Shown piece by piece: positions 5,785 through 45,394 of a stretch of 45,489 nucleotides of DNA (position 1 is its first letter; every line of letters starts with the position of its first letter). The notes beneath the pieces are model-generated. The model made no database searches. It saw only the letters and a program-made list of their open reading frames with translations, and had not been told where the DNA came from. Made by a program: the position numbers and the translations under genes. The stretch comes from an uncultured bacterium (GTDB lineage: Bacteria; Atribacterota; Atribacteria; Atribacterales; Caldatribacteriaceae). Location: positions 1-45,489 of the forward strand of contig CAKZPS010000024.1 of NCBI GenBank assembly GCA_937139415.1, given 5' to 3'.

Positions 5785-6012
5785 ATGGTCATTAAAGTTT
5801 TAGGTCCTGGATGTGCCAATTGTAAGAAATTAGAAGCTCATGTCAGAGAGGCGGTAAAGGAACTGGGAATTGAAGCTAAGATTGAAAAAGTGGATGATTT
5901 CAAGGAAATTATGGTCTATGGCGTCATGAAACTCCCTGCGCTTGTGGTGGATGAACAGGTAAAGGTGATGGGAAGAGTTCCCTCGCCAGAAGAGATCAAA
6001 AAATACTTGTGA
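5785..6012 (+). CDS. Small thioredoxin-like redox-active disulfide protein
   Basis: A 75-residue thioredoxin-fold protein of the 'redox-active disulfide protein 2' type (short, glutaredoxin-like). The N-terminal strand MVIKVLGPGCANCKKLE contains the active-site CxxC (Cys-Ala-Asn-Cys, residues 11 and 14). A cis-proline region KLPALVVDEQVKVMGRVPS is also present. The start at 5785 is chosen because AAGGAGTG precedes it by 7 bases and the fold begins there; the frame is open from 5764. It is the only undamaged gene after arsR in this cluster. Such proteins commonly sit with ArsP-like permeases and are thought to reduce a cytosolic thiol partner, but the partner is unknown. Confidence 0.88.
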   Translation: MVIKVLGPGCANCKKLEAHVREAVKELGIEAKIEKVDDFKEIMVYGVMKLPALVVDEQVKVMGRVPSPEEIKKYL

Positions 6013-6146
6013 AGCTCCAACCTGAAAACTTCTCTCTACACGGTGAATATATGGGCGGGGTGCTGAAAGAGAGAAATGTTTTACTTTCGCCGACCTTTCT
6101 TTTACTATACTGCTATAGGAATTTCTTAAACCACGGGGGGAAGAGT

Positions 6147-6941: not shown

Positions 6942-6963
6942 GAGTGAAGAAAGGAGAGGGAAA

Positions 6964-11071: not shown

Positions 11072-11771
11072 CCGGAAAAAGCTCCCCTACTTTCCACACC
11101 GGTTTAGGAAGAGGAGGGAGTTTACCTCCGCAGGGAAAGAGGAATACCGTTGCCGGACCGCAACTTGCAAAGAGCGAAAAAGGGTGCGAAGGCAAGAGAA
11201 CGAGTTTGGCACAGAGCTCACAAGCTAAGGTCAGAGCTTCACAGAAAATACCCCGTGAGCCAACCGGAAGCACTACCGGCGAGAGAGCATCGCGCACGAA
11301 GAGGAGGTCCGGTAAGGTGGCAATACTCTCTTCGTTCTCGATCACCATTTCCCCACAAGAAGGTACTCCCAAGGCATAGAGGGTGGAGGGAAGAGGTGGA
11401 GGAGGGGGAGTGGGTTTCTTTTTTCCTATTACAGTGATCCCCAAGGCGGTTTGAGTGGTAGGAATATTCTTTTCACTCGACACAAGGAAAGGAAGTTCCT
11501 CCTTTCCGATGGTACGAAGCTCCCGGCGAATGGCTTCTTCGGCCTCCAAGAGGAAAGGGTAAGGTTCAACACTGAGGGTAAGAATGAGTAAAAGTGGGTC
11601 TGCGCCGCAACTCAACACCTCCGCCAATGCGACCCGTGCGGTAAATTGCGCACTCACCCCGAGGGGGACACGGACGCGGTCCCCCTCTTTGGGACCAATC
11701 GCCCCGAGCGAATCACAAGCCACCACAAGATCGCCGGGAAAAGCATGAGAAAGAATGAACACATCTCTCAT
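11052..11771 (-). CDS. cblS: CblS-like alpha-ribazole kinase (AIR-synthase/ThiL-like)
   Basis: A 239-residue protein with an AIR-synthase/ThiL-type ATP-binding fold: DLVVACDSLGAIGPKEGDRV (about residues 14-33), ARVALAEVLSCGADPLLLIL and TTQTALGITVIG. In Firmicutes, cblT-cblS pairs under B12 riboswitches take up alpha-ribazole, the nucleoside of the lower cobalamin ligand, and phosphorylate it. I assign the name from fold plus this gene context. ATG 11771 overlaps the cblT stop as ATGA, showing translational coupling. A proline run (KKKPTPPPPPLPS) occurs in the middle. The gene ends inside the 3' end of the epimerase on the opposite strand. Other small-molecule kinases of this fold remain possible. 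Confidence 0.72.
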   Translation of the reverse strand: MRDVFILSHAFPGDLVVACDSLGAIGPKEGDRVRVPLGVSAQFTARVALAEVLSCGADPLLLILTLSVEPYPFLLEAEEAIRRELRTIGKEELPFLVSSEKNIPTTQTALGITVIGKKKPTPPPPPLPSTLYALGVPSCGEMVIENEESIATLPDLLFVRDALSPVVLPVGSRGIFCEALTLACELCAKLVLLPSHPFSLFASCGPATVFLFPCGGKLPPLPKPVWKVGELFPAKGGDF

Positions 11772-12250
11772 CTCTTCAAGAGCACCCGGTGCACCAAAGA
11801 AGCGATCACCAAGTTCGCCGCCGAGGTTACAAGGAGAGAAACCACTATCCCGGTGAAAAACCCCCATCCGAAAAAGGGAACTAAGCTCAAAGGAGCAATA
11901 ACTCCGTTGAGTGCGGTGGTCACTCCTATTGCCAAAGGATATCCCCATCGCAAGAAAAGGAAACGGAAAGCCAGGGCAATGAGCGCCATCTCACCGGCAA
12001 TCACGAGGTGGAAGAGCACCCCCAAGGGGAAACCGACGTTGAGGGAGGTGAGCATGTGACCTAAGAAGGCGATGAGCGCCCCTTCTTGGTATCCCAGGCT
12101 CAGTGCGCCCACAAAACCGGGGAGAGAATCCAAGGCTACCGTTCCGGTAGGGCTGGGAATTTTGATGTACGACCCAACTACCGACAGAGCCACTAAAGAA
12201 GAAACCAAAGTGAGTTTAAAGAGAGGAAGAGAAAGAGTTTTTTGATTCAC
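11768..12250 (-). CDS. cblT: CblT-like ECF transporter substrate-binding (S) component
   Basis: Membrane S-component of 160 residues with five to six hydrophobic helices and the family-typical opening LTLVSSLVALSVVGSYIKIP, then GTVALDSLPGFVGALSLG and GHMLTSLNVGFPLGVLFHL. ECF S-components bind a vitamin or precursor and use a shared energising module, which is not in this window. The B12 riboswitch and terminator directly upstream, and the coupled cblS downstream, point to alpha-ribazole or another cobalamin precursor. GTG 12250 is chosen because AAAGGAGG lies 9 bases before it; the longer open frame runs backwards through the riboswitch and is not coding. Confidence 0.82.
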   Translation of the reverse strand: MNQKTLSLPLFKLTLVSSLVALSVVGSYIKIPSPTGTVALDSLPGFVGALSLGYQEGALIAFLGHMLTSLNVGFPLGVLFHLVIAGEMALIALAFRFLFLRWGYPLAIGVTTALNGVIAPLSLVPFFGWGFFTGIVVSLLVTSAANLVIASLVHRVLLKR

Positions 12251-12270
12251 CGCAAAAAACCTCCTTTCAA

Positions 12271-12307
12271 AATAAAAAGTCCTCAAAACATACGCTTTGA
12301 GGACTTT
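12271..12307 (-). terminator. Riboswitch-controlled intrinsic terminator before cblT
   Basis: On the minus strand two 12-base complementary arms (12296-12307 and 12276-12287) flank an 8-base loop, followed by a T-rich stretch ending at 12271. It lies between the B12 aptamer and the cblT ribosome site, so it is the likely expression platform: cobalamin binding would favour termination. Confidence 0.85.
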
Positions 12308-12322
12308 ACCATCATCCTCCAA

Positions 12323-12488
12323 GCTCTCTCTGTGGCAGGTCTTCTGGCTCGGGTTCATCGTTTGTGGAACCTTCCCGGCTTCCGCCAGTGGTTGACCCAC
12401 TCTCCCCCTCACAGCGGCGGGTCCGCGCCGGATTTGCACCGGACTTCCCTATTCTCTCCCAAGGAGCACCACAGAGAAAGAGAGGCTC
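12323..12488 (-). promoter_or_regulatory. Cobalamin (B12) riboswitch aptamer
   Basis: Read on the minus strand, the segment has the conserved B12-box features in order: GGGAAGTCCGGTGCAAATCC, CGGACCCGCCGCTGTGA, and near the 3' end GCCAGAAGACCTGCC. The 5' CTCTCT...CTGTGG and 3' CCACAGAGAGAG pair to form P1. The aptamer lies directly upstream of a terminator hairpin and the cblT-cblS pair. Ends are approximate. Confidence 0.93.
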
Positions 12489-13757: not shown

Positions 13758-14827
13758 TGAGAGATATACGTCCGAGCCCAGGACAAAGAATTTTTATCCA
13801 AGTCGGCCGCAATTGGGTCACCCTTTTCCTCTTCGCTTTGGTAGTGTTATTCAGTTTCACCGGTAAAGGATTTTTCTTCCCTAAAACGCTCAATAATATC
13901 CTCCTCACTTCTTCTTCCGCGCTCCTCTTTGCTGCCGGAGAAATATTTGTGATCATCACCGGGGGATCGACCTCTCGGTGGGGTTTGTGCGGGGACTCGT
14001 CTCGGTGATTTCGGCAATTATCATGCGCGATTTATACGCACAAGGGTATGCCCCCTCTTTGTGCATCTTCTTGGGCATTGTGGTGGGACTCCTTCTCAGG
14101 CTCCTTCCCGGATGGATCAACGGGGTACTGGTCGCCAAATTTCGTGTCCCTCCCTTCATTGCCACCTTAGGAATGTACGGGCGCCAATGGATTTGCCCTT
14201 TGTTTCTCCAAGAGTTTTTCCCATTACCTTTTTACCTCCTGAGGTAGGACAAATCGGTAACGGCTTTTTCCTCTACTATTTTCCTGGGAAAGGACTGAGT
14301 TTCTTCACTTGACACCGGACATCGCCGAGGTGGAAATGCGCTATCTCCTTGGCATTTTTCCTTTCTCCATCGCCATCGTGGCCATCCTCCTCATCTTCCA
14401 TTTCCTCCTCTCCCGTACCCAGTTCGGACAACACATCCATGCTCTCGGAGGAAATATCGATGCTGCCCGCCGGGCAGGGGTTCCCGGAGATCGGGGCCTT
14501 ATCCGCGTGTACATGATTTCCTCTTTCTTTGCCGCCCTCTCGGGGATTATGTACACCCTCCGTTTCGTCACCGGCAGAGCCGATGCCGGTTCGGCACGGA
14601 TGCTCGATTCGGTGGTGGCGGTAGTGATCGGGGAGCCAGTCTCCATGGAGGTACAGGGAGCATCATCGATCCCATCATCGGAACCCTGGTTATTGGGGTC
14701 TTGGAAACCGGGATGGTCAACTCGGAACTGCCGACTCATAACAAATAGGTGTACGTGGGGATTATTTTTGATTCTCGCGGTATTGATCAACCAGTTCTTC
14801 CCGGAATTGGCGAAAAAGGGAGAATAG
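13757..14827 (+). pseudogene. Decayed ribose-type ABC permease
   Basis: ATG 13757 starts a RbsC-like permease: NWVTLFLFALVVLFSFTGKG, FPKTLNNILLTSSSALLFAAG, IFVIITGG. Near 13970, in a run of five G, the frame is lost; the family motif GGIDLSVG resumes in another frame as LSVGFVRGLVSVISAIIM. Later blocks (INGVLVAKFRVPPFIATLGM; HIHALGGNIDAARRAGVPG; MISSFFAALSGIMYTLRF) are in order but separated by shifts near 14190 and 14240, a stop near 14310, and further shifts near 14630-14730. The overall order and length (about 355 codons) match a complete permease. It is non-functional as written. Confidence 0.88.
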
Positions 14828-14830
14828 AGG

Positions 14831-15606
14831 ATGAACGATCGTAAACCACTCTTAGAAGTACGCGATATCGTGAAGCGGTTCGGGGGTTTAGTAGCTCTCA
14901 ACCGAGTGAGTATGGAGGTCTACCCCGGCGAAGTGGTGGGGCTCTTGGGAGATAACGGTGCAGGAAAATCAACCTTGATCAAAATCGTCTCCGGTGTGTA
15001 TCGCGCCGAGGAAAGGGAATTTTTTCGAGGGGAAGGAAGTGAAAATCAACAGCCCCATGGAGGCGCTCAAGTTGGGCATTGAAACCATTTACCAAGACCT
15101 GGCCTTGGCCGAAAACCTCAACGTGTACGCAAATATTTTCTTAGGACGAGAAAAACTGAGGAAAGCCTTGGCCTCATTCCGGTCTTAGACCACGACTATA
15201 TGCTGGAAGAATCGAAAAAGGTCCTCAACCGCTTAGGTATTGAAATCCCTTCCTTACGCAACAAAATCAAAAATTTCTCCGGAGGACAGAGGCAATCGGT
15301 GGCCATTTCTCGTTCCATCTACTGGAATGCCAAACTCCCCATCACGGACGAACCGACCGCCGCCTTAGGAGTGGCCGATCAGCGGAAAGTCCTTAATCTG
15401 GTTCGCACCTTGAGTGAACAGGGAGTCTATTATTATCATCAGCCACGAGCTCACGATGTGTTCCAAGTGGCCCACCGTTTGATGGTCTTGCGGTGGGGAG
15501 AAAAGGTAGGGGAACACTTGACCCACGAGACCAATCCCAATGAAATCGTGAGCCTCATGGTGGGTGCGGAACTGGTCCAAGGGGTGAGTCGCGAAAAGGA
15601 AGAAAA
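14831..15606 (+). pseudogene. Decayed ribose-type ABC transporter ATPase
   Basis: Begins [20 protein letters not shown] with Walker [10 protein letters not shown] at about residue 37. A frameshift near 15010 continues as [20 protein letters not shown] and [15 protein letters not shown] second near 15180 leads to [20 protein letters not shown], the signature FSGGQRQSVAISR and a Walker-B-like PITDEPTAALG. The stretch meant to read ISHELHDVF is also broken near 15440. The size, about 250 codons, is that of single-cassette ATPases of the intact paralogue at 41349-42104, not the double-cassette RbsA. The right end is approximate and lies just before a terminator hairpin. Confidence 0.87.
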
Positions 15607-15630
15607 CCTGGGCCGAGTGGCCCAGGTTTT
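15607..15630. terminator. Bidirectional intrinsic terminator
   Basis: An 8-base perfect stem (15607-15614 with 15619-15626) and a GAGT loop, flanked by A-rich sequence on the left and TTTT on the right, so it can work in both directions. It ends the decayed importer on the plus strand and the rubredoxin gene on the minus strand, whose stop codon overlaps it at 15630. Confidence 0.8.
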
Positions 15631-15788
15631 CACTCTTTCTCGAATTGGTCTTTTCCTGCTCCGCACACTGGACAGATCCAGTCGGGAGGCAGGGCTTCGA
15701 AAGGAGTACCCGGTTCTATCCCGGCGTCGGGGTCACCCTTTGCCGGGTCGTACACATACCCACAGACAAGACACACGTATCGGTCCAC
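15630..15788 (-). CDS. Rubredoxin
   Basis: A 52-residue cytosolic one-iron electron carrier. The two metal knuckles are [15 protein letters not shown] (Cys6, Cys9) and [14 protein letters not shown] (Cys39, Cys42), with the conserved [15 protein letters not shown] between them. The start is GTG 15788 with AGGAGGG 5 bases upstream. It stands between two hairpin terminators and follows the por operon on the same strand. Rubredoxins in anaerobes feed electrons to oxygen and peroxide detoxification enzymes or to other ferredoxin-linked reactions; the partner is not in the window. The gene is intact, in contrast to the ruined importer opposite it. Confidence 0.95.
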
Positions 15789-15829
15789 ACTATCCCTCCT
15801 TCTCGCAAAATTTCTCTAAAATACAAAAA

Positions 15830-15859
15830 CCCAGGGGAGGACTGAAATCCTCCCCTGGG
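15830..15859 (-). terminator. Intrinsic terminator of the por operon
   Basis: Two 12-base arms (15830-15841 and 15848-15859) are perfectly complementary around a 6-base loop. On the minus strand the hairpin is followed by TTTTTG, and it lies 11 bases after the porB stop. Confidence 0.88.
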
Positions 15860-15869
15860 AAAAACTACT

Positions 15870-16787
15870 TTACTCACACTTCTTGAGAAGCGATTCCCAC
15901 TCTCGATCCACGTAGGCTTGGATCGCTTCAATGAGGTGACGATTCTCGGGAGCGAAAAGGTGCTTAAACCTCCCTTGCACTCTCAGCCACTCTTCCACTG
16001 GCTTTTTCTCCTTCGGCTTATAGGTGAGACGATATTTCCCGTTTTCCACTTCATAGAGGGGCCAGATACAGCAATCGGCCGCGAGTTGCATAATCTTCAG
16101 GGTATCACCGGTGGCGTGGCGCCATCCTCGGTTACAGGAAGCAAGAACATTCAAGAACGAAGGCCCATCGGTATGGAAAGCCTTTTCGGCTTTGTTCACT
16201 AAATCACGCCAGTTCCACGGTGCCGATTGGGCAACGTAGGGGATACCATGGGCCACCACGATTTCGGTGAGGTTTTTACGCCACTGGAGTTTTCCGGGTT
16301 GAGCCTTGCCTTCAGGACTGGTCGTGGTCCAAGCCCCAAGAGGGGTGGCACTGGAACGCTGAATACCAGTGTTCATGTAAGCCTCATTGTTGTAACAAAC
16401 ATACAAGAAACGGTGCCCACGCTCGAGCGCCCCCGAGAGAGCCTGCAAACCGATATCATAGGTTCCCCCGTCTCCACCGAAAGCGACAAAATAGATATCC
16501 TCGGTGATTTCTCCTTTTCTCTTCTTCGCCTGATACATACTCTCTACCCCGGCAATGGTCGCGGCTACATTTTCAAAGGCGCTATGGATCCAAGGGATAT
16601 CCCAAGCAGTATAGGGGAAGATCGAGGTAGATACCTCAAGACACCCTGTGGCACTGGCGGCGATAACCGGTTTGTCAGCAGCCATGAGAATCAAACGTAC
16701 CGCGATCGGCGCTCCACAACCGGCACAAAGCCTGTGTCCGGGAGTGAGCATTTCTTTCCTTTTAGCTAATTCTTTCAAGCTGGGCAT
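15870..16787 (-). CDS. porB: Pyruvate:ferredoxin oxidoreductase, beta subunit
   Basis: Thiamine-diphosphate-binding subunit (305 residues) of the four-subunit enzyme that converts pyruvate and CoA to acetyl-CoA and CO2, reducing ferredoxin. GHRLCAGCGAPIAVRL (Cys21, Cys24), ATGCLEVS (Cys49) and a late ASCNRGW supply the four cysteines of the proximal 4Fe-4S cluster. FGGDGGTYDIGLQ followed by NNEAYMNTG is the ThDP/Mg motif. ATG 16787 is preceded by AAGGGAGGCG; the frame extends upstream only as a shadow of porA. It is the last gene of the porG-porD-porA-porB run and is followed by a strong terminator. Confidence 0.95.
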   Translation of the reverse strand: MPSLKELAKRKEMLTPGHRLCAGCGAPIAVRLILMAADKPVIAASATGCLEVSTSIFPYTAWDIPWIHSAFENVAATIAGVESMYQAKKRKGEITEDIYFVAFGGDGGTYDIGLQALSGALERGHRFLYVCYNNEAYMNTGIQRSSATPLGAWTTTSPEGKAQPGKLQWRKNLTEIVVAHGIPYVAQSAPWNWRDLVNKAEKAFHTDGPSFLNVLASCNRGWRHATGDTLKIMQLAADCCIWPLYEVENGKYRLTYKPKEKKPVEEWLRVQGRFKHLFAPENRHLIEAIQAYVDREWESLLKKCE

Positions 16788-34298: not shown

Positions 34299-34855
34299 GT
34301 TTCTATACCCCGTTCTTTGAGTACTTGGGTAAGGCTCTCTTCGTATACCGCCAAATCGGGTGAGGTGAAGAGCACCAAAACTACTTCTCGGAGAGATGTC
34401 CCAGGATGCTCACTGAGGAAATCGATAATCGTCCGCAAGGCTACGAGTGAAGCCTCTTTCAGGGGATACCCGTAAGCACCGGTGCTCAGAGAAGGAAAAG
34501 AAATGGAAGTAAGGCGGTGTTCCTCCGCTAACTGTAAGCTCGAGAGATAGGCACTCCGCAAGAGTTCCGCTTCTTTTTTCTTCCCTCCCTGGTATATTGG
34601 TCCTACCGCATGAATCACGTAACGCGCCTTCAAGTTTCCCCCTCTGGTGATCACCGCCTTTCCGGTAGGACAACCTCCGATTTTGCGACACTCTTCGGCG
34701 ATGGCCGGTCCTCCAGCTCGGTGAATAGCTCCGTCTACCCCTCCTCCTCCCGCTAAGCGAGAATTGGCGGCATTCACAATTGCCTCGGTCGCTTGCTCGG
34801 TAATATCACCCTGGATGAGGGAGAGCACACAAGACCCAATTTTCACCTGTTTCAT
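34295..34855 (-). CDS. Macro-domain protein (ADP-ribose/O-acetyl-ADP-ribose deacetylase type)
   Basis: A 186-residue single macro domain. LIQGDITEQATEAIVNAANS (about 13-32), RLAGGGGVDGAIHRAGG, ARYVIHAVGPIY and SISFPSLSTGAYGYP are the ADP-ribose-binding loops, all conserved. Family members hydrolyse O-acetyl-ADP-ribose or remove ADP-ribose from proteins or nucleic acids. ATG 34855 is chosen because GGTGGAGTGG precedes it and the domain starts immediately; the open frame to 35071 is not coding. It is convergent with rdgB and divergent from the acyl-CoA ligase gene. Confidence 0.94.
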   Translation of the reverse strand: MKQVKIGSCVLSLIQGDITEQATEAIVNAANSRLAGGGGVDGAIHRAGGPAIAEECRKIGGCPTGKAVITRGGNLKARYVIHAVGPIYQGGKKKEAELLRSAYLSSLQLAEEHRLTSISFPSLSTGAYGYPLKEASLVALRTIIDFLSEHPGTSLREVVLVLFTSPDLAVYEESLTQVLKERGIET

Positions 34856-34999
34856 GATCGCCACTCCACCATTTTTTTCTCTTATTGTATCGCGAAGGAA
34901 GGAAAATCGATCTCGCCGGAGAGCATTCACCATACCAAAATATCCCCTCAGGATACGCTTACCGTGCATTTGTGTTACAATGGAAGGGGAGGCGATACC

Positions 35000-36492
35000 A
35001 TGAAGGAAACTATCCCGGAAAGAATCAAGAACATAGCCCACGAATATTCCCACAAGACGGCTATATCCCAAGGCAATGTTTCTCTGACCTACGAAGAGCT
35101 GCTCAAGGAGATCGAAAAAGAAGCCCTACGCATGGAAAAGGCGGGATTGAAACCAGGAATGCGAGTCGTGACGGTATTTCCGAACAGTTTTTTTGCCCTC
35201 CGCTTCTTTTTAGCGTGCTTTTTCACCCAAGTGGTACCCTTGCCCTTATCAACTCGTTATCCTCAGGAATTGGTGCACAGAATCTTCCACCTTGCGGATG
35301 CGCAGATGCTCCTTGCCGACACCTCCCTTACCCCCATCGCCAATCTCCCTTGGGGGGTGATGGAGGAAAACGGTCTCATCCACTACCCTCCATCTCTCCT
35401 CCCTCCAAGTGAATCCTTCCCCCAGTTTGAAAGCCCGGTAGCGTGCCTTTTCAGCACCTCTGGTACCACCGGACTCCCCAAATTGGTCATGCTCACCCAT
35501 GGGAATCTCCTCTCCGACATTGACAGCTGCTTCGATTTGGTGGACATTTCTCCTCAGGATCGGATGCTCGGAGTCTTGCCCATGTTCCATGTGTTCGGTT
35601 TCTCCATTGCCTATCTCCCTCCTCTCGTCAAGGGCATGACTCTCACCATCGTCCCCTCGCTCTTCCCCTTCCAGCAATTCATCGAAGCACTCAAAAAAGA
35701 CCAATCTACCGTTTTCCTCGGGTTCCCGCCCTTTTCTCCATCCTCACCGGAGCACGGGCAAAGGCACACTTTGACCTCTCTCCCTTGCGTCTTCTCATCT
35801 GTGGAGGTGACGCATTGCCGGAGAGAGTTCGGGAGAATTTCGAACAAATTTTCGGATGTCGAATCATGGAAGGCTACGGCATCACCGAAGCCTCCCCGGT
35901 GGTTTCGGTGAATCCCTCCCCAGAGGTCCGAGTGCCCGGTTCAGCCGGTCCGGTTATTGAAGCTATCCACCTCCGAATTATCAACGAAAAGGGGGAAGAT
36001 GTTCCCTCAGGTGAAACCGGGGAAATCATTCTATCCGGCGATCCTATCTCCCCGGGATATTTCCGTAATCCGGAGGAAAACGCAAAAAGCTTTCAAGAAG
36101 GCTGGTTTTACACTGGAGACTTAGGCAAACTCGATGCTCAAGGAATTCTATACATCGAGGGGCGCAAAAAGGAGCTCATCATCGTTTCTGGATTTAACGT
36201 CCACCCTCAAGAAGTGGAAGAGGTGCTCCTCGAAATAGAGGGAATCGCCAAGGCGGCGGTGGTGGGAGAAAAGAGAGCCTTGCGAGGAGAAATGGTGAAA
36301 GCGTATGTAGTTCCCGAGGAGGGAGTCAACCTCGATCCAGGAGAAATAGCGAAGTTTTGCCGTAAAAAACTCCCTCCCCACAAAGTTCCCCGGCTTATCG
36401 AAATCGTAAACGACCTCCCGCAAACTCCCACGGGTAAAATCATGAAATATCTCCTCTCTTCCCAGGGGAGAGAAGTTGAGGTGGGAGAATGA
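35000..36492 (+). pseudogene. AMP-binding acyl-CoA synthetase, one frameshift
   Basis: Adenylate-forming ligase that would activate a carboxylic acid to its CoA thioester. In the first frame: SLTYEELLKEIEKEALRMEK, LFSTSGTTGLPKLVMLTHGN (the P-loop-like A3 motif) and GVLPMFHVFGFSIAYLPPL. Near GGG 35720-35722 the frame changes. The second continues FSILTGARAKAHFDLSPLRL, CGGDALPERVRENFEQIFG, EGYGITEASPVVSVNP (A5), GWFYTGDLGKLDAQGIL (A7) and ends PQTPTGKIMKYLL with the catalytic Lys. Restoring one G gives FLGVPALFSILTG and a product of about 497 residues. A single lesion in a G run suggests either a sequencing error or a very recent mutation. GGGGAGG precedes ATG 35000. Confidence 0.9.
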
Positions 36493-37169: not shown

Positions 37170-37366
37170 GAGTTATCGGCCTTATCGTCCTTTTTGTCCT
37201 TCTCGCTCTTCTTGTGTCTCTTTCCTTTCTTCCTTTGGTAGCGGTCTTTTTCATCGGTATGGGAGTGATTATGCTCTTCGTATTTCTGTTGAGGTTGGCC
37301 TTACTCTTTTTGCCTCTTTTTGCCAGTCTCTTTGTGATGATCGTGTTGTGGCGGTGGCTCTTTTAA
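37166..37366 (+). CDS. Small hydrophobic membrane protein
   Basis: A 66-residue protein, almost wholly hydrophobic, with two likely membrane helices (about 4-25 and 28-62). There is no recognised family. Its ATG overlaps the SYLF gene stop (ATGA), and AAAGGAGAGGAG precedes it, so it is very likely translated. It may assist the SYLF protein. Confidence 0.7.
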   Translation: MRVIGLIVLFVLLALLVSLSFLPLVAVFFIGMGVIMLFVFLLRLALLFLPLFASLFVMIVLWRWLF

Positions 37367-37368
37367 CC

Positions 37369-38370
37369 ATGCACGAGAATCAAGTAGGCTATTTCTGTCA
37401 TTACGTCCCTTGGGAACTTTTCGAAGCCTGTGGTCTCAGAGGAACACTCGTTACCCCTGCTCCACCTTTTCCCCGGGAGAGAGAGGCGTTCTTTCCCGTC
37501 CCTTTTTGCCCCTTCTCGAAGCTCATCGCAGAAGAAATTCACCGTGCTCCTTTCTCTCTTTACGTCCTCGGTTTTGCCTGCGATGCTTCTCGTCGAACCA
37601 AAGAAATTCTCGAATATCTCCACACCAAGAAAAACCTTCCGAAAACCATCCTTTCTCTGCCTATTCCCTTTCTTGGTTCCTCCTGGGGAATACAACGCTT
37701 GGCAGAAAACCTCCGTCAACTCTCGCTGCAGCTTGCCCTTCTTGCGGGTATTCACCCTTGGGAGGTAGAAACGAGACTGGGAGAAGTGATCCTCTCTTCC
37801 TATGAGGAACGGAAGGAAATAAGCACCCTCTTTTTCGCCGGACGCTTACCCACCCAAGCTCTCCTCACCCATAAAAGAGGGGAGAGCCTTCCTTCTCAAG
37901 AAGCTCGGCCCTCAGTACTCCTCATCGGTTCACACCTCTTCCTCTCCGAAGTGGTGCAGATCGCGGAAGAATGTGGTCTTTCCGTGATTGAAGAGAGCCC
38001 CCGGGGAACCGGACCCTGGCTCATCCTGCCCGAGCAGGATTTCGTTCCCTCCTCGGATCCCTTTTTGGATTTAGCCCGTCTCTACACCCTCCATAAGTTT
38101 CCCTGTCCCCGGGTGAATCAAAGACGCGCCCAAACCATTCACAAGATGGTCGATCATTTGTCTCTCACCGGGGTTATTTTCCTCTATCCGCAATTCTGCG
38201 ACGCCTTCCTCTACCAACTGGGACTCTTGCGTCGCTTCTTGGCCGTACCTCTCCTCCCCTTAGCCCATGACACCGAGCCCAACCTCGCCCAATGGACAAC
38301 GCGTATCGAAGCTTTCCGAGAGGTGGTCCGCTGTGCACCGTCCTCCCCAATGGCTCCTCAAAAGCTTTAG
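37369..38370 (+). CDS. 2-hydroxyacyl-CoA dehydratase D-component-like protein, first subunit
   Basis: A 333-residue member of the HgdB/BcrB-like family. VGYFCHYVPWELFEACGLRG (about 6-25) is the family's start with a cluster-ligand Cys. VPFCPFSKLIAEEI, LYVLGFACDASRRTKEILEY and LYPQFCDAFLYQL supply further Cys; in this family such residues bind a 4Fe-4S cluster that removes the 2-hydroxyl group or reduces aromatic rings. It pairs with the next gene and with the downstream activator. The start could be ATG 37369 (MHENQVGYFC) or GTG 37348. It overlaps the second subunit by 38 bases. Confidence 0.82.
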   Translation: MHENQVGYFCHYVPWELFEACGLRGTLVTPAPPFPREREAFFPVPFCPFSKLIAEEIHRAPFSLYVLGFACDASRRTKEILEYLHTKKNLPKTILSLPIPFLGSSWGIQRLAENLRQLSLQLALLAGIHPWEVETRLGEVILSSYEERKEISTLFFAGRLPTQALLTHKRGESLPSQEARPSVLLIGSHLFLSEVVQIAEECGLSVIEESPRGTGPWLILPEQDFVPSSDPFLDLARLYTLHKFPCPRVNQRRAQTIHKMVDHLSLTGVIFLYPQFCDAFLYQLGLLRRFLAVPLLPLAHDTEPNLAQWTTRIEAFREVVRCAPSSPMAPQKL

Positions 38371-39565
38371 CTTCCTCCTCAATCGCAAAATGCCTTTTCG
38401 CCTTCTCAAAGCCTACACCCGGTGGCTTGAATGGCGTAAACCTCCTACCGATTTAGCCCAATTCTCCTACCAAGTCACCCTGCGCTCTATCGCCAAGCTC
38501 TATGGAAGAGAAGGAAAGGTAGTGTGGGCGAGTCTCTTTTTTCCTTCCGAATTCATCTACGCTTTCCGTGGCCTTCCCTTCTACCCAGAAATCGCCGCCG
38601 GACTCTTCGCCGCCCTGGGTTTCGCGGAAATCCCCCTCCACCGGGCGGAAAAGGCGTGGTTTTCTCAGGATTTGTGTAGCTACCACCGCTTAGGGCTGGG
38701 AGCGAGTCTGTGGCGCTTTTTCCCCCGACCTTCCTTCCTCCTCGCCACCACGAGCATTTGTTGGGGGACGGTTTCTTTCTTTCAGGTGCTCGAAGAAATT
38801 TTTCGTGTTCCCTGCTACATCCTCGATGTTCCTGAGGAGTACTCTTCCGAAGCAATCCGTTACTTAGCTGCCCAGCTCGAAGACCTTGCCCACACCCTCA
38901 AGGAAAAAGAGGGAGTCACCTTCCAATGGGAAGAGGTTTTCCACCACGCGCAAAAAGCTCTCTCCATGGTGCAGGAAATCGAGTCTTTACGCAAGAGAAA
39001 GGACCTCCTCCTCCTTCCCCCGACCAAGAACTTGGACTACCTCCCTTACTACTACCAATTCATGGGTGATGAGGTTGCCGTTACCTTCTTTGAGCAATTG
39101 CGTGCTTTCCTTCTCTCTTCTACCCAAACCCTTCCGCACCGTTTGCTCTGGCTGCACCTCAAGCCTTTCTATCCTTCACCACTTCCTTCCCTCCTTGAAG
39201 AGTATGGACTTGGAGTTGTTTGCGAGGAATTCACCTCGCTCTTCCCCCACGAGCTCAATCCCCTTGAACCGTTTCTCTCTCTGGGGGAAAAAATTGCCTC
39301 CTTGAGTTTCCATTTCACCCATCCCAAAGCCCGCACCAAGCGAATTCTCCAGTGGTTCAAAGAGTATCAAGCAGAAGGCGCCATTCAATTCAACCAATGG
39401 GGATGTCGGCAGAGTCAGGGAATGAACGCTCTCCTCCGCCAATCCCTCCGTCGGGAGGGTTTTCCCATTCTCTTTCTCGACGGTGACCATCTTGACCGGC
39501 GACACAACACCCAGGAACAGTGGCGCACGCGCCTTGAGGCTTTTGCCGAAATACTGAGGGGGTGA
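38333..39565 (+). CDS. 2-hydroxyacyl-CoA dehydratase D-component-like protein, second subunit
   Basis: A 410-residue second member of the same family. KVVWASLFFPSEFIYAFRGL (about 60-79), PFYPEIAAGLFAALGF, DLCSYHRLGLGASLW, LLATTSICWGTVSFFQVLEE, and in the C-terminal half FNQWGCRQSQGMNALLRQSL and GFPILFLDGDHLDRRH. The last motif matches the family's C-terminal ending, while FFPSEFIYAFR lacks the usual Cys before Pro. GTG 38333 is chosen because GAGAGGTGG precedes it; ATG 38391 is an alternative. Unequal subunit sizes (333 and 410) resemble the alpha and beta chains of known dehydratases. Natural substrate unknown. Confidence 0.82.
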   Translation: MHRPPQWLLKSFSFLLNRKMPFRLLKAYTRWLEWRKPPTDLAQFSYQVTLRSIAKLYGREGKVVWASLFFPSEFIYAFRGLPFYPEIAAGLFAALGFAEIPLHRAEKAWFSQDLCSYHRLGLGASLWRFFPRPSFLLATTSICWGTVSFFQVLEEIFRVPCYILDVPEEYSSEAIRYLAAQLEDLAHTLKEKEGVTFQWEEVFHHAQKALSMVQEIESLRKRKDLLLLPPTKNLDYLPYYYQFMGDEVAVTFFEQLRAFLLSSTQTLPHRLLWLHLKPFYPSPLPSLLEEYGLGVVCEEFTSLFPHELNPLEPFLSLGEKIASLSFHFTHPKARTKRILQWFKEYQAEGAIQFNQWGCRQSQGMNALLRQSLRREGFPILFLDGDHLDRRHNTQEQWRTRLEAFAEILRG

Positions 39566-39570
39566 AAAAC

Positions 39571-40332
39571 GTGTACATTGCTGGGCTCGACATCGGTTCT
39601 CAATCGACCTGCGCGGTCATCTGGGGAAGCGGTCGGATATGGGCTTTTTCGGTGCTCCCGAGTGGGGTTAATCCCCAAAAAAGGGGTGAAGAAGCCCTCG
39701 CCGAAGCGCTCACGAAAAGCGGACTCACCCTGAAGGATTTGGACGCCATCATTGCTACTGGTTACGGACGCTACCAAGTAGAAGCGCACCGGCAGGTGAG
39801 TGAAATTTCCTGTCAAGCCAAAGGAGTGCATTTCTTCTTTCCTCAGGTCCGCACGGTTATTGACCTCGGGGGACAAGATAGTAAGGTCATTTTAGTCGAT
39901 CCCCGCACGGGGAGAGTCCTCGACTTCCTCATGAACGACAAGTGTGCCGCAGGAACCGGGCGTTTCTTAGAACTCATGGCGCGGGTCCTCGAAATCGAAT
40001 TAGAAGACTACGGGAAACTCATTACCCAAGGGAAGGAAGATTTGGTCCTGGCTAACACCTGTGCGGTTTTTGCTGAATCAGAAGTGGTCGGCCTCATCGC
40101 CCAAGGGAAAGAGAGGGCCGATATTGCTCGCGCGGTGTGTAAAGCAGTGGCCCAGAGAGTGGTGCAATTAGCCGAGCGAATGGGCTTGGCCGAGCCCATC
40201 GCTATCACCGGGGGAGTAGCGCGGAATCGAGGTGTTCTCCATTTCCTGGAACGGGAAATAGGAGCATCTCTCCTCGTCCCCGAAGAACCCCTCCTCACCG
40301 CCGCACTCGGCGCTTGTCTCCTTGAGGGTTAA
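39571..40332 (+). CDS. 2-hydroxyacyl-CoA dehydratase activator (BadF/BadG/BcrA/HgdC family ATPase)
   Basis: ATP-driven one-electron donor of about 253 residues of the ASKHA fold. GLDIGSQSTCAVIWG (about 5-19) is the phosphate-1 motif. VIDLGGQDSKVILVD follows, then MNDKCAAGTGRFLELMARVL with a cluster Cys at about 124, and ANTCAVFAESEVVGLIAQGK with the second Cys at about 163. These two Cys per monomer bridge one 4Fe-4S cluster at the dimer interface. ITGGVARNRGV is the adenosine motif. GTG 39571 is chosen because GAGGGGGTG lies about 6 bases before it; GTG 39562 overlaps the previous stop. It is convergent with the permease at 40329 and overlaps it by 4 bases. Confidence 0.93.
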   Translation: MYIAGLDIGSQSTCAVIWGSGRIWAFSVLPSGVNPQKRGEEALAEALTKSGLTLKDLDAIIATGYGRYQVEAHRQVSEISCQAKGVHFFFPQVRTVIDLGGQDSKVILVDPRTGRVLDFLMNDKCAAGTGRFLELMARVLEIELEDYGKLITQGKEDLVLANTCAVFAESEVVGLIAQGKERADIARAVCKAVAQRVVQLAERMGLAEPIAITGGVARNRGVLHFLEREIGASLLVPEEPLLTAALGACLLEG

Positions 40333-41330
40333 CGATGGGCTTCCATTTGTTTTTTCTCGATATACATGCTGGAAAGGACCGAAAAGAGCACCACCAAACC
40401 GAAGAAGACATAGGTCCAAAAGTAGGGAATACGTAAGACCACCAACCCATTCTCAATGACCGAGATAACTATGGCGCCCAAGAAAATGCCCATCATGCTC
40501 CCGATCCCACCCCGGAGAGAGGTCCCCCCTACTACGCTCGCTGCCACCGCTTTGAGTTCCCAACCCTCTCCGGTCCGTGAGGTGAAGCAGGCTAAACGAC
40601 CGATCTGAGCACACGCCACCACCCCACACAAAACTCCCACGATGATGAAACAAGCCGTTTTCACCCAATCGGTGTTGATTCCCATGGCTCGGGCAGCATC
40701 TCGATTGTCCCCGGTAGCATAAACCCAGTTTCCGAAGCGATGGTAGTGGAGGAGAATACCCAAGAGGATCGCAAATAGGGTGAACCACAGGAATTGGGCG
40801 GGCAAGAATCCCCCCGCCCTCCCGGTGAAGAGAGCAAGAAACCGAGAGGCGGCTTTCGTTCCCAAGGCAGAAACATCGCAAGCAGTCTGTTCTCCTCCTG
40901 AGAGAAGGAGAGTCAAACCTCGCCAAAACATCATGGTCCCCAAGGTAGTCACGAAGGAGGGGATTTGTCCTCTTACCGTGATGAGACCGTTGACCAATCC
41001 CAAGGCCCCTCCTACGAAAACCGTTACCACGGCAATGATGAAGGGGTTCACCTCAAGTTCAAAGAGTTTGAGGAACACGAAGGAACAGAAAACGAGAATC
41101 GAACCAATAGATAAATCGAACTCCCCGCAAATCATGAGCATCCCCACGCCCAGGGCGATAATGCTAAATTCCGCACCGAGGGAGAGCAACACCTTGAGGT
41201 TATCGGGGTCCACAAAACGGTGCTCAGGAGAGAAAAGCGAAAATAAAAGCAGAATGAGAACCAAAACGACAAGAACACTCGTCGCGCGAGATAGTAAAAA
41301 TCGTCTCCCCAGAGTGAGTTTCTTTTCCAT
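40329..41330 (-). CDS. Ribose-type ABC transporter permease (second copy)
   Basis: A 333-residue inner-membrane permease of the RbsC-like family with about nine hydrophobic segments. IIALGVGMLMICGEFDLSIG (about 55-74) is the conserved motif that reads GGIDLSVG in most members; here GGI is replaced by CGEF. IPSFVTTLGTMMFWRGL, YATGDNRDAARAMGINTDWV and VVGGTSLRGGIGSMMGIFLG follow. The last gene in the minus-strand importer operon, 18 bases after the ATPase. Two permease genes suggest a heterodimeric channel. One stretch is DNA-identical to the other permease gene. Confidence 0.93.
   Translation of the reverse strand: MEKKLTLGRRFLLSRATSVLVVLVLILLLFSLFSPEHRFVDPDNLKVLLSLGAEFSIIALGVGMLMICGEFDLSIGSILVFCSFVFLKLFELEVNPFIIAVVTVFVGGALGLVNGLITVRGQIPSFVTTLGTMMFWRGLTLLLSGGEQTACDVSALGTKAASRFLALFTGRAGGFLPAQFLWFTLFAILLGILLHYHRFGNWVYATGDNRDAARAMGINTDWVKTACFIIVGVLCGVVACAQIGRLACFTSRTGEGWELKAVAASVVGGTSLRGGIGSMMGIFLGAIVISVIENGLVVLRIPYFWTYVFFGLVVLFSVLSSMYIEKKQMEAHR
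40624..40789. repeat. 166-bp exact repeat, copy in second permease gene
   Basis: Identical over 166 bases to 42413-42578 (offset 1789), within the coding region of the second permease. It encodes LWFTLFAILLGILLHYHRFG and about 35 further residues up to IIVGVLCG. Sequence on either side is much less similar, pointing to recent gene conversion. Confidence 0.95.
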
Positions 41331-41348: not shown

Positions 41349-42104
41349 CTACTCGGCTACAAAAGCACTCTTTAGAACCAAGTCAGAAAGCCCTTGGGGA
41401 GAAGTGTCTTCTTTCTTCACGTCAGCCATTTTCTTTCCCCGGGCCATAACCACAAAACGCTCGGCAATATCAAAGGCATGGTACAAATTGTGGGTGATGA
41501 AAATCACCGAGACCTTCTCCCTCTGCAGTTGACGAATGAACTCTAACACTTCTTCCACTTCCTTCACCGAGAGAGCTACCGTCGGCTCATCGAGAATCAC
41601 TAACTTAGCTTTGAAGTGGAGTGCCCGGGCAATTGCCACCCCCTGGCGCTCTCCTCCAGAAAGGGTGACTACTGGGACATCGGGAGAACGGAGCTTGAGA
41701 CCCAAGTTAGCCAAAGCCTGCATGCTCTCTTCATCCATCACTTTTTTGTCGATGAGTCCTAACCGACGGAGGGGCTCTCTCCCCATGAAAATATTGCGCG
41801 AAATACTCAAGTTAGGGGCTAAGGCTTGTTCTTGGTACACAGTCTCTATCCCCAAACCCCGGGCATCACGAGGAGAACGAATGCTCACCCTCTGCCCCTC
41901 AAAGTAGATTTCTCCTTGGTCGGCGTGATGATACCCGGAGAGAATCTTGATGAGCGTTGACTTCCCCGCTCCATTGTCTCCGATGAGCCCCACGGTTTCA
42001 CCTCGTCTCACTTCAAAATCGACCCCCCGCAGGGCGTACACCCGACCGAACCACTTGTGGATATTCACCATTCGGACTAAGAAATCATTATTCTCTCTCT
42101 CCAT
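41349..42104 (-). CDS. Ribose-type ABC transporter ATPase (single cassette)
   Basis: A 251-residue ATPase that powers import. Walker A is [19 protein letters not shown] (about 38-56); YQEQALAPNLSISRNIFMGR is the Q-loop region, LSGGERQGVAIARALHFKAK is the signature, VILDEPTVAL is Walker B and VIFITHNLYHAFD contains the switch His. It has only one nucleotide-binding cassette, so it must dimerise, unlike two-cassette RbsA. ATG 42104 follows AGAGAGGTTAG. It lies between the two permeases in the operon. Confidence 0.95.
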   Translation of the reverse strand: MERENNDFLVRMVNIHKWFGRVYALRGVDFEVRRGETVGLIGDNGAGKSTLIKILSGYHHADQGEIYFEGQRVSIRSPRDARGLGIETVYQEQALAPNLSISRNIFMGREPLRRLGLIDKKVMDEESMQALANLGLKLRSPDVPVVTLSGGERQGVAIARALHFKAKLVILDEPTVALSVKEVEEVLEFIRQLQREKVSVIFITHNLYHAFDIAERFVVMARGKKMADVKKEDTSPQGLSDLVLKSAFVAE

Positions 42105-42129: not shown

Positions 42130-43098
42130 CTAACGAAACCTTCTCTCCACATAGGTATTGAGGAGGACGAAGAGAATGGTGGCCAATCCGATGAAGGCAC
42201 TAATCCCCATCACCGGAACCCGCAAGAGCACTAAACCATTATCGAGAATGGGAATGGTCAAAGCTCCCAGGACCACCCCTGACATACTCCCTATTTCGCC
42301 ACGGAGAGAAGTTCCTCCTACCACACACGCGGCGATAGCGCGAAGTTCAAAGTTAATCCCCTGAGTAGCGGCAAAAGAACCGATACGCACCGATTGCATA
42401 CAGGCAGAGAAACCACACAAAACTCCCACGATGATGAAACAAGCCGTTTTCACCCAATCGGTGTTGATTCCCATGGCTCGGGCAGCATCTCGATTGTCCC
42501 CGGTAGCATAAACCCAGTTTCCGAAGCGATGGTAGTGGAGGAGAATACCCAAGAGGATCGCAAATAGGGTGAACCACAAGGATTGCACCGGGAAAAACCC
42601 GAACACCGTTCCGGTGAGGACTTTCTCAAACAACGACCCACTGGGAATATACTGGCGAATCCCAAGAGGCATGAGCTTTGACCAGATATAGAGGACCCCC
42701 CGCCAAAACATGAGGGTTCCCAAGGTGGTGATAAAAGAGGGCATACGCGTTTTTACGGTCAAAAATCCGTTGAACCACCCCAAGGCCGCACCAACGAGGA
42801 GAGCGAAGAAGAGTCCCCAAGAAGGCGCAAGACCAGCGTAGAGGGTGCGGGCGAAAATATAGGCACAGAAGGGGAGCACCGAGGCAACGGAGAGGTCAAA
42901 CTCTCCACAGATCATGAGCATTCCAATTCCCAAAGTCACGATGCCCAAATCGGGGAACAGTTTCCCCAGGGCGGCAATGTTTCGCGAATGGACGAACACG
43001 TAACGCGGGCTTAAAAAGGCGAAAATGAGCACTAATCCCACAAAAACCAAAAAGGTACTCGCTGCCCTTCGGCGTAAAAACTGAATCAAACGCTCCAT
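42130..43098 (-). CDS. Ribose-type ABC transporter permease (first copy)
   Basis: A 322-residue permease. LGIVTLGIGMLMICGEFDLS (about 50-69) has the same altered CGEFDLS motif as its paralogue. MPSFITTLGTLMFWRGVLYI, YATGDNRDAARAMGINTDWV and VVGGTSLRGEIGSMSGVVLG are conserved. It begins 65 bases after the binding-protein gene, beyond a hairpin; GGAGGAGATAAC precedes ATG 43098. A 166-base segment is identical to the second permease gene while the flanks differ. Confidence 0.93.
   Translation of the reverse strand: MERLIQFLRRRAASTFLVFVGLVLIFAFLSPRYVFVHSRNIAALGKLFPDLGIVTLGIGMLMICGEFDLSVASVLPFCAYIFARTLYAGLAPSWGLFFALLVGAALGWFNGFLTVKTRMPSFITTLGTLMFWRGVLYIWSKLMPLGIRQYIPSGSLFEKVLTGTVFGFFPVQSLWFTLFAILLGILLHYHRFGNWVYATGDNRDAARAMGINTDWVKTACFIIVGVLCGFSACMQSVRIGSFAATQGINFELRAIAACVVGGTSLRGEIGSMSGVVLGALTIPILDNGLVLLRVPVMGISAFIGLATILFVLLNTYVERRFR
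42413..42578. repeat. 166-bp exact repeat, copy in first permease gene
   Basis: Exact partner of 40624-40789. Both copies lie in the same orientation and at the same point of paralogous genes, so unequal recombination between them would delete the ATPase gene and fuse the permeases. Confidence 0.95.
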
Positions 43099-43162: not shown

Positions 43163-44155
43163 CTAACGAATGTGTAACGGTGAGAGCTTTTCGATGAGTG
43201 AGATCTTATCCGGAGAGTCGATCAAATACCCACCCGTGTCAATGTTGGGAGTGAAACCGTACTTATTGTAGAGATAGAGCACGTATACGGCAAAATATCC
43301 CTGCAAGTACTGTTGCTGGTCAATGGTGGCAGTGACATACCCCTCACGAATTCCATTGAGGGTATCGGCGGTGGTATCAAAGCCACCCGCGATAACCTCC
43401 CCGGGATTCCTCCCCGCCGCTTTCAGCGAAGCGGTGAGACGGTCGGTACAGATACCACCCAAACCGATGAGGAAAGTGGTTTCGGGGTGAGCCAAAAGGT
43501 AAGCGGTCTCGCGAGACTCTACCGTGGTCATCTCGAGACCACCGGCATCGATGATCTCGTAAGAGGTGATTCCATATTCTTGCATCGCCTCTAAGACACC
43601 ACTTGAGCGGATTTTTGCGTAGTTTGCTCCGGGCACTTCTGCAGCCATGGCTACATGGGCTTTGGAGAAATCAATTCCTTTTAATTTCGCTTCCTCGAAT
43701 AATCTCCTCGCCAAACGATAGGCCGCCGCCTTTTCGCTCTGTCCAATGTAGCACAACCGCTTATTCCCGTTGGCGCCCTCGGAATCATCGTTATTCATCC
43801 CGATCACGGGAATTCCCTGGGCCAGAGCCTCCTCAACCGGTTTATCCCAGGCGGTATCATCGTTGATGACCAGGGCAATACCTTGAGGCTTGAGAGCCAC
43901 GGCTTCTTGGAAACGCTTCTGTTGCAGGGCCAGGTCTCCACCGCAGAGATCAATATCTACTTTGCAACCCAGTTCCTTGGCCGCATCGGTAGCCCCTTTC
44001 TGCACTACTGCCCAGAAGGGATCATCTCCACCGTGGGTAACCAAGCGGAAGTACATCCCCTCTGCCGGCTTTGCCTCTTGAGCCATTGCCCAAGACAGAG
44101 AGAACACTAAAACCACCACTACCAATCCAATGAGATAACCTCGCTTCACTGACAT
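43163..44155 (-). CDS. Periplasmic sugar-type substrate-binding protein (Peripla_BP_4/RbsB-like)
   Basis: A 330-residue exported binding protein. The signal peptide is about 1-25 (GYLIGLVVVVLVFSLSWAMA followed by QEA). The ligand-binding fold has FRLVTHGGDDPFWAVVQKGA, ALQQKRFQEAVALKPQGIAL, GIPVIGMNNDDSEGANG and the hinge EVIAGGFDTTADTLNGIREG. ATIDQQQYLQGYFAVYVLYL is the usual C-terminal motif. The ligand is probably a sugar or polyol, but the neighbouring methyltransferase gene raises the chance of a methylated compound. AAAGGAGGGATG precedes the ATG. It is second in the operon, 34 bases after the URO-D gene. Confidence 0.93.
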   Translation of the reverse strand: MSVKRGYLIGLVVVVLVFSLSWAMAQEAKPAEGMYFRLVTHGGDDPFWAVVQKGATDAAKELGCKVDIDLCGGDLALQQKRFQEAVALKPQGIALVINDDTAWDKPVEEALAQGIPVIGMNNDDSEGANGNKRLCYIGQSEKAAAYRLARRLFEEAKLKGIDFSKAHVAMAAEVPGANYAKIRSSGVLEAMQEYGITSYEIIDAGGLEMTTVESRETAYLLAHPETTFLIGLGGICTDRLTASLKAAGRNPGEVIAGGFDTTADTLNGIREGYVTATIDQQQYLQGYFAVYVLYLYNKYGFTPNIDTGGYLIDSPDKISLIEKLSPLHIR

Positions 44156-44189
44156 CCCTCCTTTTCGGTGTTATTTCCGAACCGAATAC

Positions 44190-45342
44190 TCATAGAAAAC
44201 TCAATATCTGCTCACTCTCACCCCCTTTGCTTCTCCCATAGGAGAGGGCTTCTTCGTACATGGCGACGATATTCTCGGCAGGCACATCGGCTTGCAGGTT
44301 GTGCACCGCGCAGAGGACATACCCTCCACCCGGTGCCAAATCGTCAATCCGCCGCCGCACCTCCTCTCGCACTTCCTTCTCGCTCCCAAAGGGGAGCACC
44401 CGTTGGGTGTCGATCCCTCCCCAGAAGGAGAGTACCGCACCAAACTCTTTCTTGAGTCGGCGGGTATCCATCCCCTCGGCACTCACCTGCACGGGATTGA
44501 TAATCTCGACCCCAATGTCCACAAGATCAGACAAGAAGGGAGTAATGGCCCCACAGGAGTGGTAGAAGAGGAAAGCCCGCGTCTTTTTCTTGATCGCTTC
44601 ATAGAGCTTTTTCTGCCGGGGCTTCACGTACTTGCGGTAGAGTTCTAAGGAGAGAATCGGTCCCCGTTGGGTAGCCAAATCATCGCCGCAGAGCACCACA
44701 TCAACCCACTCTCCCACCCGGGAGAGGAGAGCATCGAATTGGGCGATCTGAAACTCAAGGAACATATCCATGATGCCACAAGCCAAAGGAGGGTTGAGTA
44801 CTAAATCCTCCATGAAGCGGGCAAACCCCCGGAGGTACCAAGCGAATTCAAAACAGGAAGCGATGAGATTAACGATCGCCGCATGACCGCGGCGGCGAAT
44901 GTCTTGGAGTTCTCTCCGTACCCCTTGGTAGTACTCTTGCGGAGGGAGGGGAGGGGGAGAGAAACGTCGTAAATCTTCCCGCGTCTCCACCGAAGCGAGG
45001 GGGTGTCTCACCATATCCGAGTAGAGTCCGGTAAATTGTCGCTCCACCCCCCCATGCATCTTGCCATACCCTTCCCGGGGCATCCTCGCTCCACACTTCT
45101 CTGGGAATTTCCTCATACACGTAGCGGATATCGATGTGAAAACGGTGGAGAATTTCTTCCTGAGGACGAACCAAATACTGTGAGCGATCCACCAAGCACT
45201 CTTCCGCCTCTACGCCTAAATACTGGCACAGACGACGATAGGCAAAGAGAGAGATGCCGGAGGCGATACTCCCCAAATCGAGAGGTACACGATCGGGTTC
45301 TTGATGCTTTAAAGCGCACAGTAACCGTTCTCGAGAAGTCAC
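44190..45342 (-). pseudogene. URO-D-family methyltransferase with apparent zinc ligands, one frameshift
   Basis: First gene of the importer operon. The N-terminal frame runs from GTG 45342: MTSRERLLCALKHQEPDRVP, YRRLCQYLGVEAEECLVDRS, ending at WQDAW. A run of seven C (45047-45053 on the plus strand) breaks the frame; with six the protein would continue VERQFTGLYSDMVRHPLASV in the second frame. That frame has LSLELYRKYVKPRQKKLYEA, FLFYHSCGAITPFLSDLVDI and GGYVLCAVHNLQADVPAEN. HSCG plus the late Cys fit the HxC...C zinc site of MtaA/CmuA-type corrinoid methyltransferases. Corrected length is about 383 residues. The single lesion in a homopolymer may be a sequencing error or a slipped-strand (phase) switch. 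Confidence 0.88.
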
Positions 45343-45366
45343 CGCTTCAATCCCATCCTCGTTATT

Positions 45367-45394
45367 AGTATAACACGAATCTCCCTCCCGTCAA
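45367..45394 (-). promoter_or_regulatory. Promoter of the methyltransferase-importer operon
   Basis: On the minus strand TTGACG (45389-45394) and TATACT (45367-45372) are 16 bases apart, about 25 bases before the GTG at 45342. The 95 bases to the window's right edge show no gene. Confidence 0.7.

Follow-up and report, generated by a model that had tools for sequence, protein, structure and literature searches.

What does an enzyme of the UroD superfamily do at the head of an operon that encodes a sugar-type ABC importer? The question is raised by the stretch of DNA analyzed here (the window, 45,489 nucleotides; contig CAKZPS010000024.1 of assembly GCA_937139415.1, from an uncultured bacterium), which belongs to a 2.3 Mb draft genome (96% complete) related to Candidatus Caldatribacterium and to further members of the Atribacterota. 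The answer that we favor, with moderate confidence, is that the operon combines a dedicated importer with a UroD-type methyltransferase I, so that methyl groups of an imported methylated compound would be passed to the corrinoid protein of this genome and from there to folate.

A five-gene operon with an interrupted first gene

On the minus strand, from 45342 to 40329, five genes follow each other head to tail with short gaps, namely, a UroD-superfamily (PF01208) methyltransferase gene with a GTG start (44190-45342), a gene for a Peripla_BP_4 substrate-binding protein (43163-44155), a BPD_transp_2 permease (42130-43098), an ABC ATPase of about 251 aa with a single nucleotide-binding domain (41349-42104) and a second BPD_transp_2 permease (40329-41330). 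Judging from the Pfam matches, the common strand and the short gaps, this is a single operon of a UroD-superfamily gene and an importer, and the gene order given in an earlier note on this DNA is thus borne out. The promoter to which the same note attributed the expression of these genes is present on the minus strand (45367-45394) as a sigma-70-like site, TTGACG-16-TATACT with an extended -10 element, which matches the consensus in 10 of 12 positions and is the best of four such sites in its region; given that shuffled sequence yields 3.1 sites with at least 9 of 12 matches by chance in a region of this kind, its role in driving the operon is only suggestive.

The GTG at 45342 gives the N-terminus MTSRERL, in agreement with the N-termini of the orthologs (MTSAERL, MTSSERL). 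The gene is not, however, a single open frame: residues 1-98 are encoded in one frame and the remainder in another, with the break at a run of seven G residues (45047-45053, minus strand), and matches to the orthologs extend on both sides of it in the different frames (45046-45342 and 44193-45053). Taken at face value, this break would make the gene a pseudogene in this organism and reduce the operon to an importer. We consider this extremely improbable because both halves are conserved, no further stop or frame break occurs in the 383 codons of the composite protein, and breaks in homopolymers are typical sequencing errors. An AMP-dependent ligase gene (34793-36492) and an ABC importer gene (13960-15886) of the window also look split by frameshifts, which suggests that the window sequence is error-prone and that the break in the UroD gene, too, is probably a sequencing or assembly error. 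Protein searches were performed with the composite of the two frames, and intact orthologs served for the alignment (A1) and for structure modeling.

Conservation of the operon in Atribacterota

Of the 100 relatives that were searched, 13 have an ortholog of the enzyme, 60-66% identical to it. At 12 of these 13 other loci, the binding protein or the importer is present as well (in ten, importer genes follow, and in two, the contig ends past the binding protein); the exception is G014, a genome from a third family in which the enzyme stands alone. The operon-bearing relatives represent two families, f1 and f3, within the order, so that the survey of gene neighborhoods proposed in the earlier note shows the layout to be kept across both. 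In one genome (G009), the gene caller missed the frames of the enzyme and the binding protein; the enzyme is found by similarity search, and the ATPase and the second permease are present. In seven f3 genomes, a gene for an FGGY sugar kinase is located upstream of the enzyme gene on the same strand, complete in four and cut by a contig end in three.

Convergent with the importer operon, and behind it, the window carries on the plus strand an acyl-CoA-dehydratase activase gene and two HGD-D (double-cubane-like) genes (37348-40332). The same set is also convergent behind the operon in G017 and G015, of another family (loci L045 and L048), and is not found behind it at the Caldatribacterium-like locus of G002.

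A UroD-superfamily protein with a predicted His-Cys-His metal site

The composite protein scores 77.4 bits against PF01208 (gathering cut-off 23.9), which places it within the superfamily. The AlphaFold model of an intact ortholog (pLDDT 86.6, pTM 0.88) agrees with the UroD TIM-barrel fold, with MtaA and HemE as its top Foldseek matches, the best PDB entries being those of MtaA (4ay8/4ay7, E 4e-14). Of these two identities, that of HemE, the uroporphyrinogen decarboxylase, is ruled out by the lack of any match to the hemE equivalog model TIGR01464 at E values up to 0.001. Against the MtaA/CmuA family model TIGR01463, the window protein scores 66.5 bits, well below the curated cut-off of 235.4. 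Taken together, the sequence matches and the modeled fold support the assignment of a putative methyltransferase of the UroD-superfamily type.

The earlier note had described a zinc signature consisting of an HSCG motif and a more distal cysteine. The first part of this signature holds: in an alignment of 71 homologs from many phyla, His261 of HSCG is present in all and Cys263 in 70 (His261-x-Cys263, 44553-44561, minus strand). The second does not, inasmuch as the cysteine of YVLC (composite residue 344) is a cysteine in only seven of the 71 sequences and N, A, T, S or G in the other 64. Three residues further, His347 (44301-44303, minus strand; VHNLQADVP) is invariant in all 71 and occupies the column in which His-Cys-Cys homologs, that is, a paralog from the same genome (OWN_L001) and several proteins from two Moorella genomes, carry their second cysteine, the position of the MtaA-type cysteine. 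In the predicted structure, the HSCG motif and His347 each come after a predicted strand. We predict, then, that the metal site consists of His261, Cys263 and His347, the invariant histidine taking the place of the second cysteine. For comparison, the metal motifs of UroD genes adjacent to corrinoid genes were examined in the two Moorella genomes and one Desulfosporosinus genome.

The His-x-Cys motif of zinc-dependent corrinoid methyltransferases I is thus retained in the window enzyme; one UroD-superfamily methyltransferase requires no zinc at all (PMC13222342). In this superfamily, the His-Cys-Cys set marks the enzymes that act on S-methyl and Se-methyl groups, and in the O-methyl enzymes, one or both cysteines are replaced (Kountz and Balskus, PMC10418091). 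The predicted metal set therefore speaks against a thiol acceptor, one of the acceptors envisaged in the earlier note, and lends mild support to a substrate with an O- or N-methyl group. A role like that of MtaA, with the methyl group moved from a corrinoid protein to a thiol, might be suggested by the fact that MtaA is the nearest solved relative; we regard it as very unlikely in view of the replacement of the third-ligand cysteine by histidine in every homolog, the presence in the genome of OWN_L001 as a separate His-Cys-Cys paralog, the His-Cys-Cys nature of the S-methyl members (PMC10418091), and the lack of an obvious use for such an enzyme next to a sugar importer. The window enzyme shares with MtaA and MtbA (methylcobamide:coenzyme M methyltransferases; PDB 4ay7) the fold, the His-x-Cys metal motif and the link to corrinoid proteins, but is only about 18% identical to them, has histidine instead of cysteine as the third ligand, falls below the family cut-off and is encoded together with a sugar-type importer. 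We found no characterized member of the UroD superfamily with a His-Cys-His set.

The window contains a second UroD gene (6964-8154), which follows a short-chain dehydrogenase gene by 22 bases on the plus strand (6009-8154 for the pair). Its metal motif is Y-x-E, not His-x-Cys, and the protein is 39% identical to a UroD protein of Moorella sulfitireducens (L216) whose gene has corrinoid and methyltransferase II genes on its flanks; by virtue of this motif and these neighbors, the window protein may belong to the carboxylate-type O-demethylases.

A single corrinoid protein encoded elsewhere in the genome

No gene for a corrinoid protein, a methyltransferase II or an activator was detected in this operon or in any of the orthologous operons of Atribacterota, so the presence of a corrinoid protein in the same cluster, which is usual though not universal for a methyltransferase I, does not hold for these operons. 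The earlier note had seen a gap here, and the corrinoid protein is, indeed, absent from the window; however, the genome encodes one. It is the only protein with the B12-binding cap (PF02607), and a search with it as the query finds no second copy. It contains the motif GDLHDIGKN and scores best on MtgC-type models (241.7 bits, under the cut-off of 370) and slightly below the cut-off (210 versus 215.3) on the general model of methyltransferase-associated corrinoid proteins. Its gene lies directly upstream of the gene for formate-tetrahydrofolate ligase, followed by those for an HdrA-like flavoprotein, an Fe-S protein, an MvhD-like protein and MetV (PF12225). On its other side are genes for serine hydroxymethyltransferase and a formate channel, and in the corresponding cluster of G017, MetF follows. 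About 16 kb beyond, the same contig carries the gene for the sole PF00809 protein of the genome, a methyltetrahydrofolate:corrinoid methyltransferase (NF005719, 317 bits; cut-off 259), and a different contig encodes one RACo-type activator with 2Fe-2S, middle and C-terminal domains. The genome thus holds the corrinoid protein, the methyltransferase II and the activator that a methyltransferase I would require; CdhC (acetyl-CoA synthase) and MtaB were not found in it, and it has one homolog of MttB.

About 17 UroD genes are present in this genome, and in nearly all relatives within the order, one or two PF02607 proteins stand against 4 to 20 UroD matches. Because of this disparity in gene counts, many UroD enzymes probably share a single corrinoid protein. 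The hub protein and the methyltransferase II resemble the MtgC-type corrinoid protein and the AcsE-like methyltransferase, respectively, but differ from those systems in context, the corrinoid gene being located next to formate-tetrahydrofolate ligase and MetV/MvhD, in a genome that lacks acetyl-CoA synthase, and without an MttB neighbor. A cobalamin riboswitch does exist in the window, as implied by the earlier mention of nearby B12-controlled cblTS genes (12317-12488, minus strand; 116 bits); it precedes a weak match to an ECF transporter (11768-12439) and a gene at 11052-11948, at a distance of 32 kb from the operon.

The importer and the class of its substrate

The binding protein (142 bits against Peripla_BP_4), the two permeases and the ATPase belong to the families of the CUT2 sugar importers of the ribose, allose and rhizopine type; unlike RbsA of CUT2 systems, with its fused pair, the ATPase has one nucleotide-binding domain, and no curated substrate model reaches its cut-off. 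Between the orthologous operons, the ATPase is 73-88% and the binding protein 68-86% identical, the latter exceeding the 60-66% of the enzyme, and the stretches THGGDDPFW, NDDTAWD, NNDD and GFDTT of the binding protein are unbroken; this higher conservation suggests that the ligand is probably the same in the different genomes. Solved structures related to the binding protein offered no clue to that ligand. Rhizopine is an O-methyl amino-inositol. The rhizopine-binding protein model NF052284 is the best NCBIfam match, but at 130.7 bits the score is far below the cut-off of 420 and is surpassed by those of two further binding proteins encoded in this genome, so we keep rhizopine as a mere hint.

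From the importer family, the kinase neighbors and the non-thiol metal site, we infer an O-methylated sugar or cyclitol as the first choice of substrate and a methylated amine as the second. Under the latter option, the importer would bring in an amino-cyclitol or a betaine-like compound and the UroD enzyme would demethylate nitrogen. Such a substrate would fit the best model match of the binding protein, which is to rhizopine, an amino-inositol, and the glycine-betaine-type MtgC models on which the corrinoid protein scores best (241.7 bits), and the His-Cys-His set is not typed for any substrate. Nevertheless, quaternary amines are served by MttB-type enzymes, one of which the genome already has, and a CUT2 importer with adjacent FGGY kinases indicates sugars or polyols, so we consider demethylation of nitrogen unlikely, if deserving attention.

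Homologs in other phyla and the spread of the importer linkage

Members of the subfamily are found in Planctomycetota, Verrucomicrobiota, Bacillota, Chloroflexota and other phyla. Among the 143 same-strand neighbors of 54 members from outside Atribacterota, the most common families are B12-binding (7), URO-D (6), B12-binding_2 (6), Peripla_BP_4 (5) and BPD_transp_2 (5). In Desulfosporosinus (L122), genes for a permease, an ATPase, a binding protein, the UroD protein, a corrinoid protein and an FGGY kinase form a row, and in a Chloroflexi MAG (L123), the row comprises an ATPase, a permease, a binding protein, the UroD protein, a short-chain dehydrogenase and a UroD/B12 fusion protein; at L156, the genes ahead of the enzyme code for a corrinoid protein and a pterin-binding methyltransferase. 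Altogether, corrinoid proteins are encoded in the same cluster in L100, L122, L141, L156 and L123.

These neighbors bear on the broader alternative that the UroD-fold protein is an enzyme of another kind (a lyase, isomerase or decarboxylase) that acts on the imported sugar. The breadth of the superfamily, the absence of a methyl-carrier gene from the operon and the association of related UroD genes with several different importers are all compatible with such a function. The near invariance of His-x-Cys...His, the lack of a hemE model match, the prevalence of corrinoid proteins among the neighbors in other phyla and the fusion of a corrinoid domain to a related UroD protein in L123 argue to the contrary, and on balance this alternative appears improbable.

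The layout, for which the earlier note knew of no characterized parallel, is not unique. In a quick tree of 88 proteins, in which several paralogs from the same genome form long branches, adjacency to this type of importer requires nine changes, at least five of them forced by well-supported branches. The pairing of UroD and importer genes thus probably arose more than once, with different importers.

On contigs C63, C68, C23 and C7 of the genome to which the window belongs (G000), at least five more UroD loci (L059, L062, L058, L063, L064) lie near BPD_transp_2 or BPD_transp_1 importer genes. A paralogous UroD gene, also with the His-Cys-His set, heads a TrkH/Rnf (electron-transport) operon in many Atribacterota including the genome of the window (L061, L052, L054, L055, L056, L127, L134, L146-L148); three genes of about 450 aa in that operon, considered as MtaB-type methyltransferases, proved to be TrkH and Rnf subunits by Pfam. 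We know of no reason for a methyltransferase in such an operon.

A proposed route of methyl transfer

Under the scenario that we favor, the CUT2 importer would take up a methylated molecule, with an O-methylated sugar or cyclitol as the probable substrate. The UroD enzyme, holding a metal ion by His261, Cys263 and His347, would bind the methylated heteroatom and hand its methyl group over to the cob(I)alamin of the single MtgC-like corrinoid protein, from which the methyltetrahydrofolate:corrinoid methyltransferase would carry it on to tetrahydrofolate. MetF/MetV with the Hdr/Mvh-like proteins and formate-tetrahydrofolate ligase could then use the methyl group for oxidation, formate production or biosynthesis, the RACo-type protein would restore oxidized cobalt, and the demethylated product would join sugar metabolism, conceivably via the FGGY kinase that adjoins the operon in one branch. 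Several observations weigh against this scenario: the operon contains no partner gene, in G014 the enzyme occurs with no importer, the score on the MtaA/CmuA model is low, the gene is frameshifted in the assembly, no characterized His-Cys-His member was found, the rhizopine hint is weak, and the MttB homolog could itself be the partner of the corrinoid protein.

A more general, tentative version, which we regard as a real possibility short of an even chance, is that Atribacterota harvest methyl groups in a hub-and-spoke fashion, with 10 to 17 substrate-specific UroD enzymes, several of which would have a His-Cys-His site and a sugar importer to themselves. These enzymes would strip methyl groups from O-methylated carbohydrates or cyclitols and pass them to one corrinoid protein that they share and whose gene adjoins the folate C1 genes, and the whole would amount to an anaerobic route for demethylating O-methyl sugars.

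Relation to known systems and implications

The fold, the partners and the general chemistry are already known from OdmB, VdmB, MtvB, MtoB, CdmB and MtaA (PMC13222342, PMC10418091). The first five of these, from acetogens and archaea, share with the window enzyme the superfamily and the expected role of a methyltransferase I working with a separate corrinoid protein, methyltransferase II and activator; they act on methoxylated aromatics or chloromethane, usually next to their own corrinoid gene, and are compared here through their published descriptions. In type 1 mlp clusters, several UroD methyltransferases likewise share one corrinoid protein and an activator, but those enzymes are of the His-Cys-Cys type, cluster with the corrinoid protein and are linked to methyl-selenium or methyl-sulfur compounds (PMC10418091), whereas the UroD genes described here encode His-Cys-His proteins, are scattered over the genome and are linked to sugar importers. 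In the open-licence literature on Atribacterota, an MtgB-type betaine enzyme has been noted in JS1, as has a methyl-folate:corrinoid methyltransferase; searches of that literature for UroD or corrinoid systems in this phylum found no description of these operons. Three features appear, provisionally, to be new: the conserved link to a sugar-type importer, a metal site of the His-Cys-His type and a single hub encoded next to folate genes.

O-methylated sugars occur in plant and algal polymers, and we found no anaerobic enzyme that removes their methyl groups in the open-licence literature. In this relative of Caldatribacterium, the association of a UroD enzyme with a sugar importer and of a lone corrinoid protein with folate genes suggests that methyl groups are harvested from imported methylated small molecules. 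If this is the case, the operon would offer a concrete enzyme, importer and corrinoid partner for anaerobic demethylation of O-methyl sugars, and would account for the retention of a corrinoid methyl carrier, together with its methyltransferase II and activator, in a genome that lacks acetyl-CoA synthase. A large branch of the UroD superfamily, represented in Planctomycetota, Verrucomicrobiota, Bacillota, Chloroflexota and other phyla, would also gain a candidate function.
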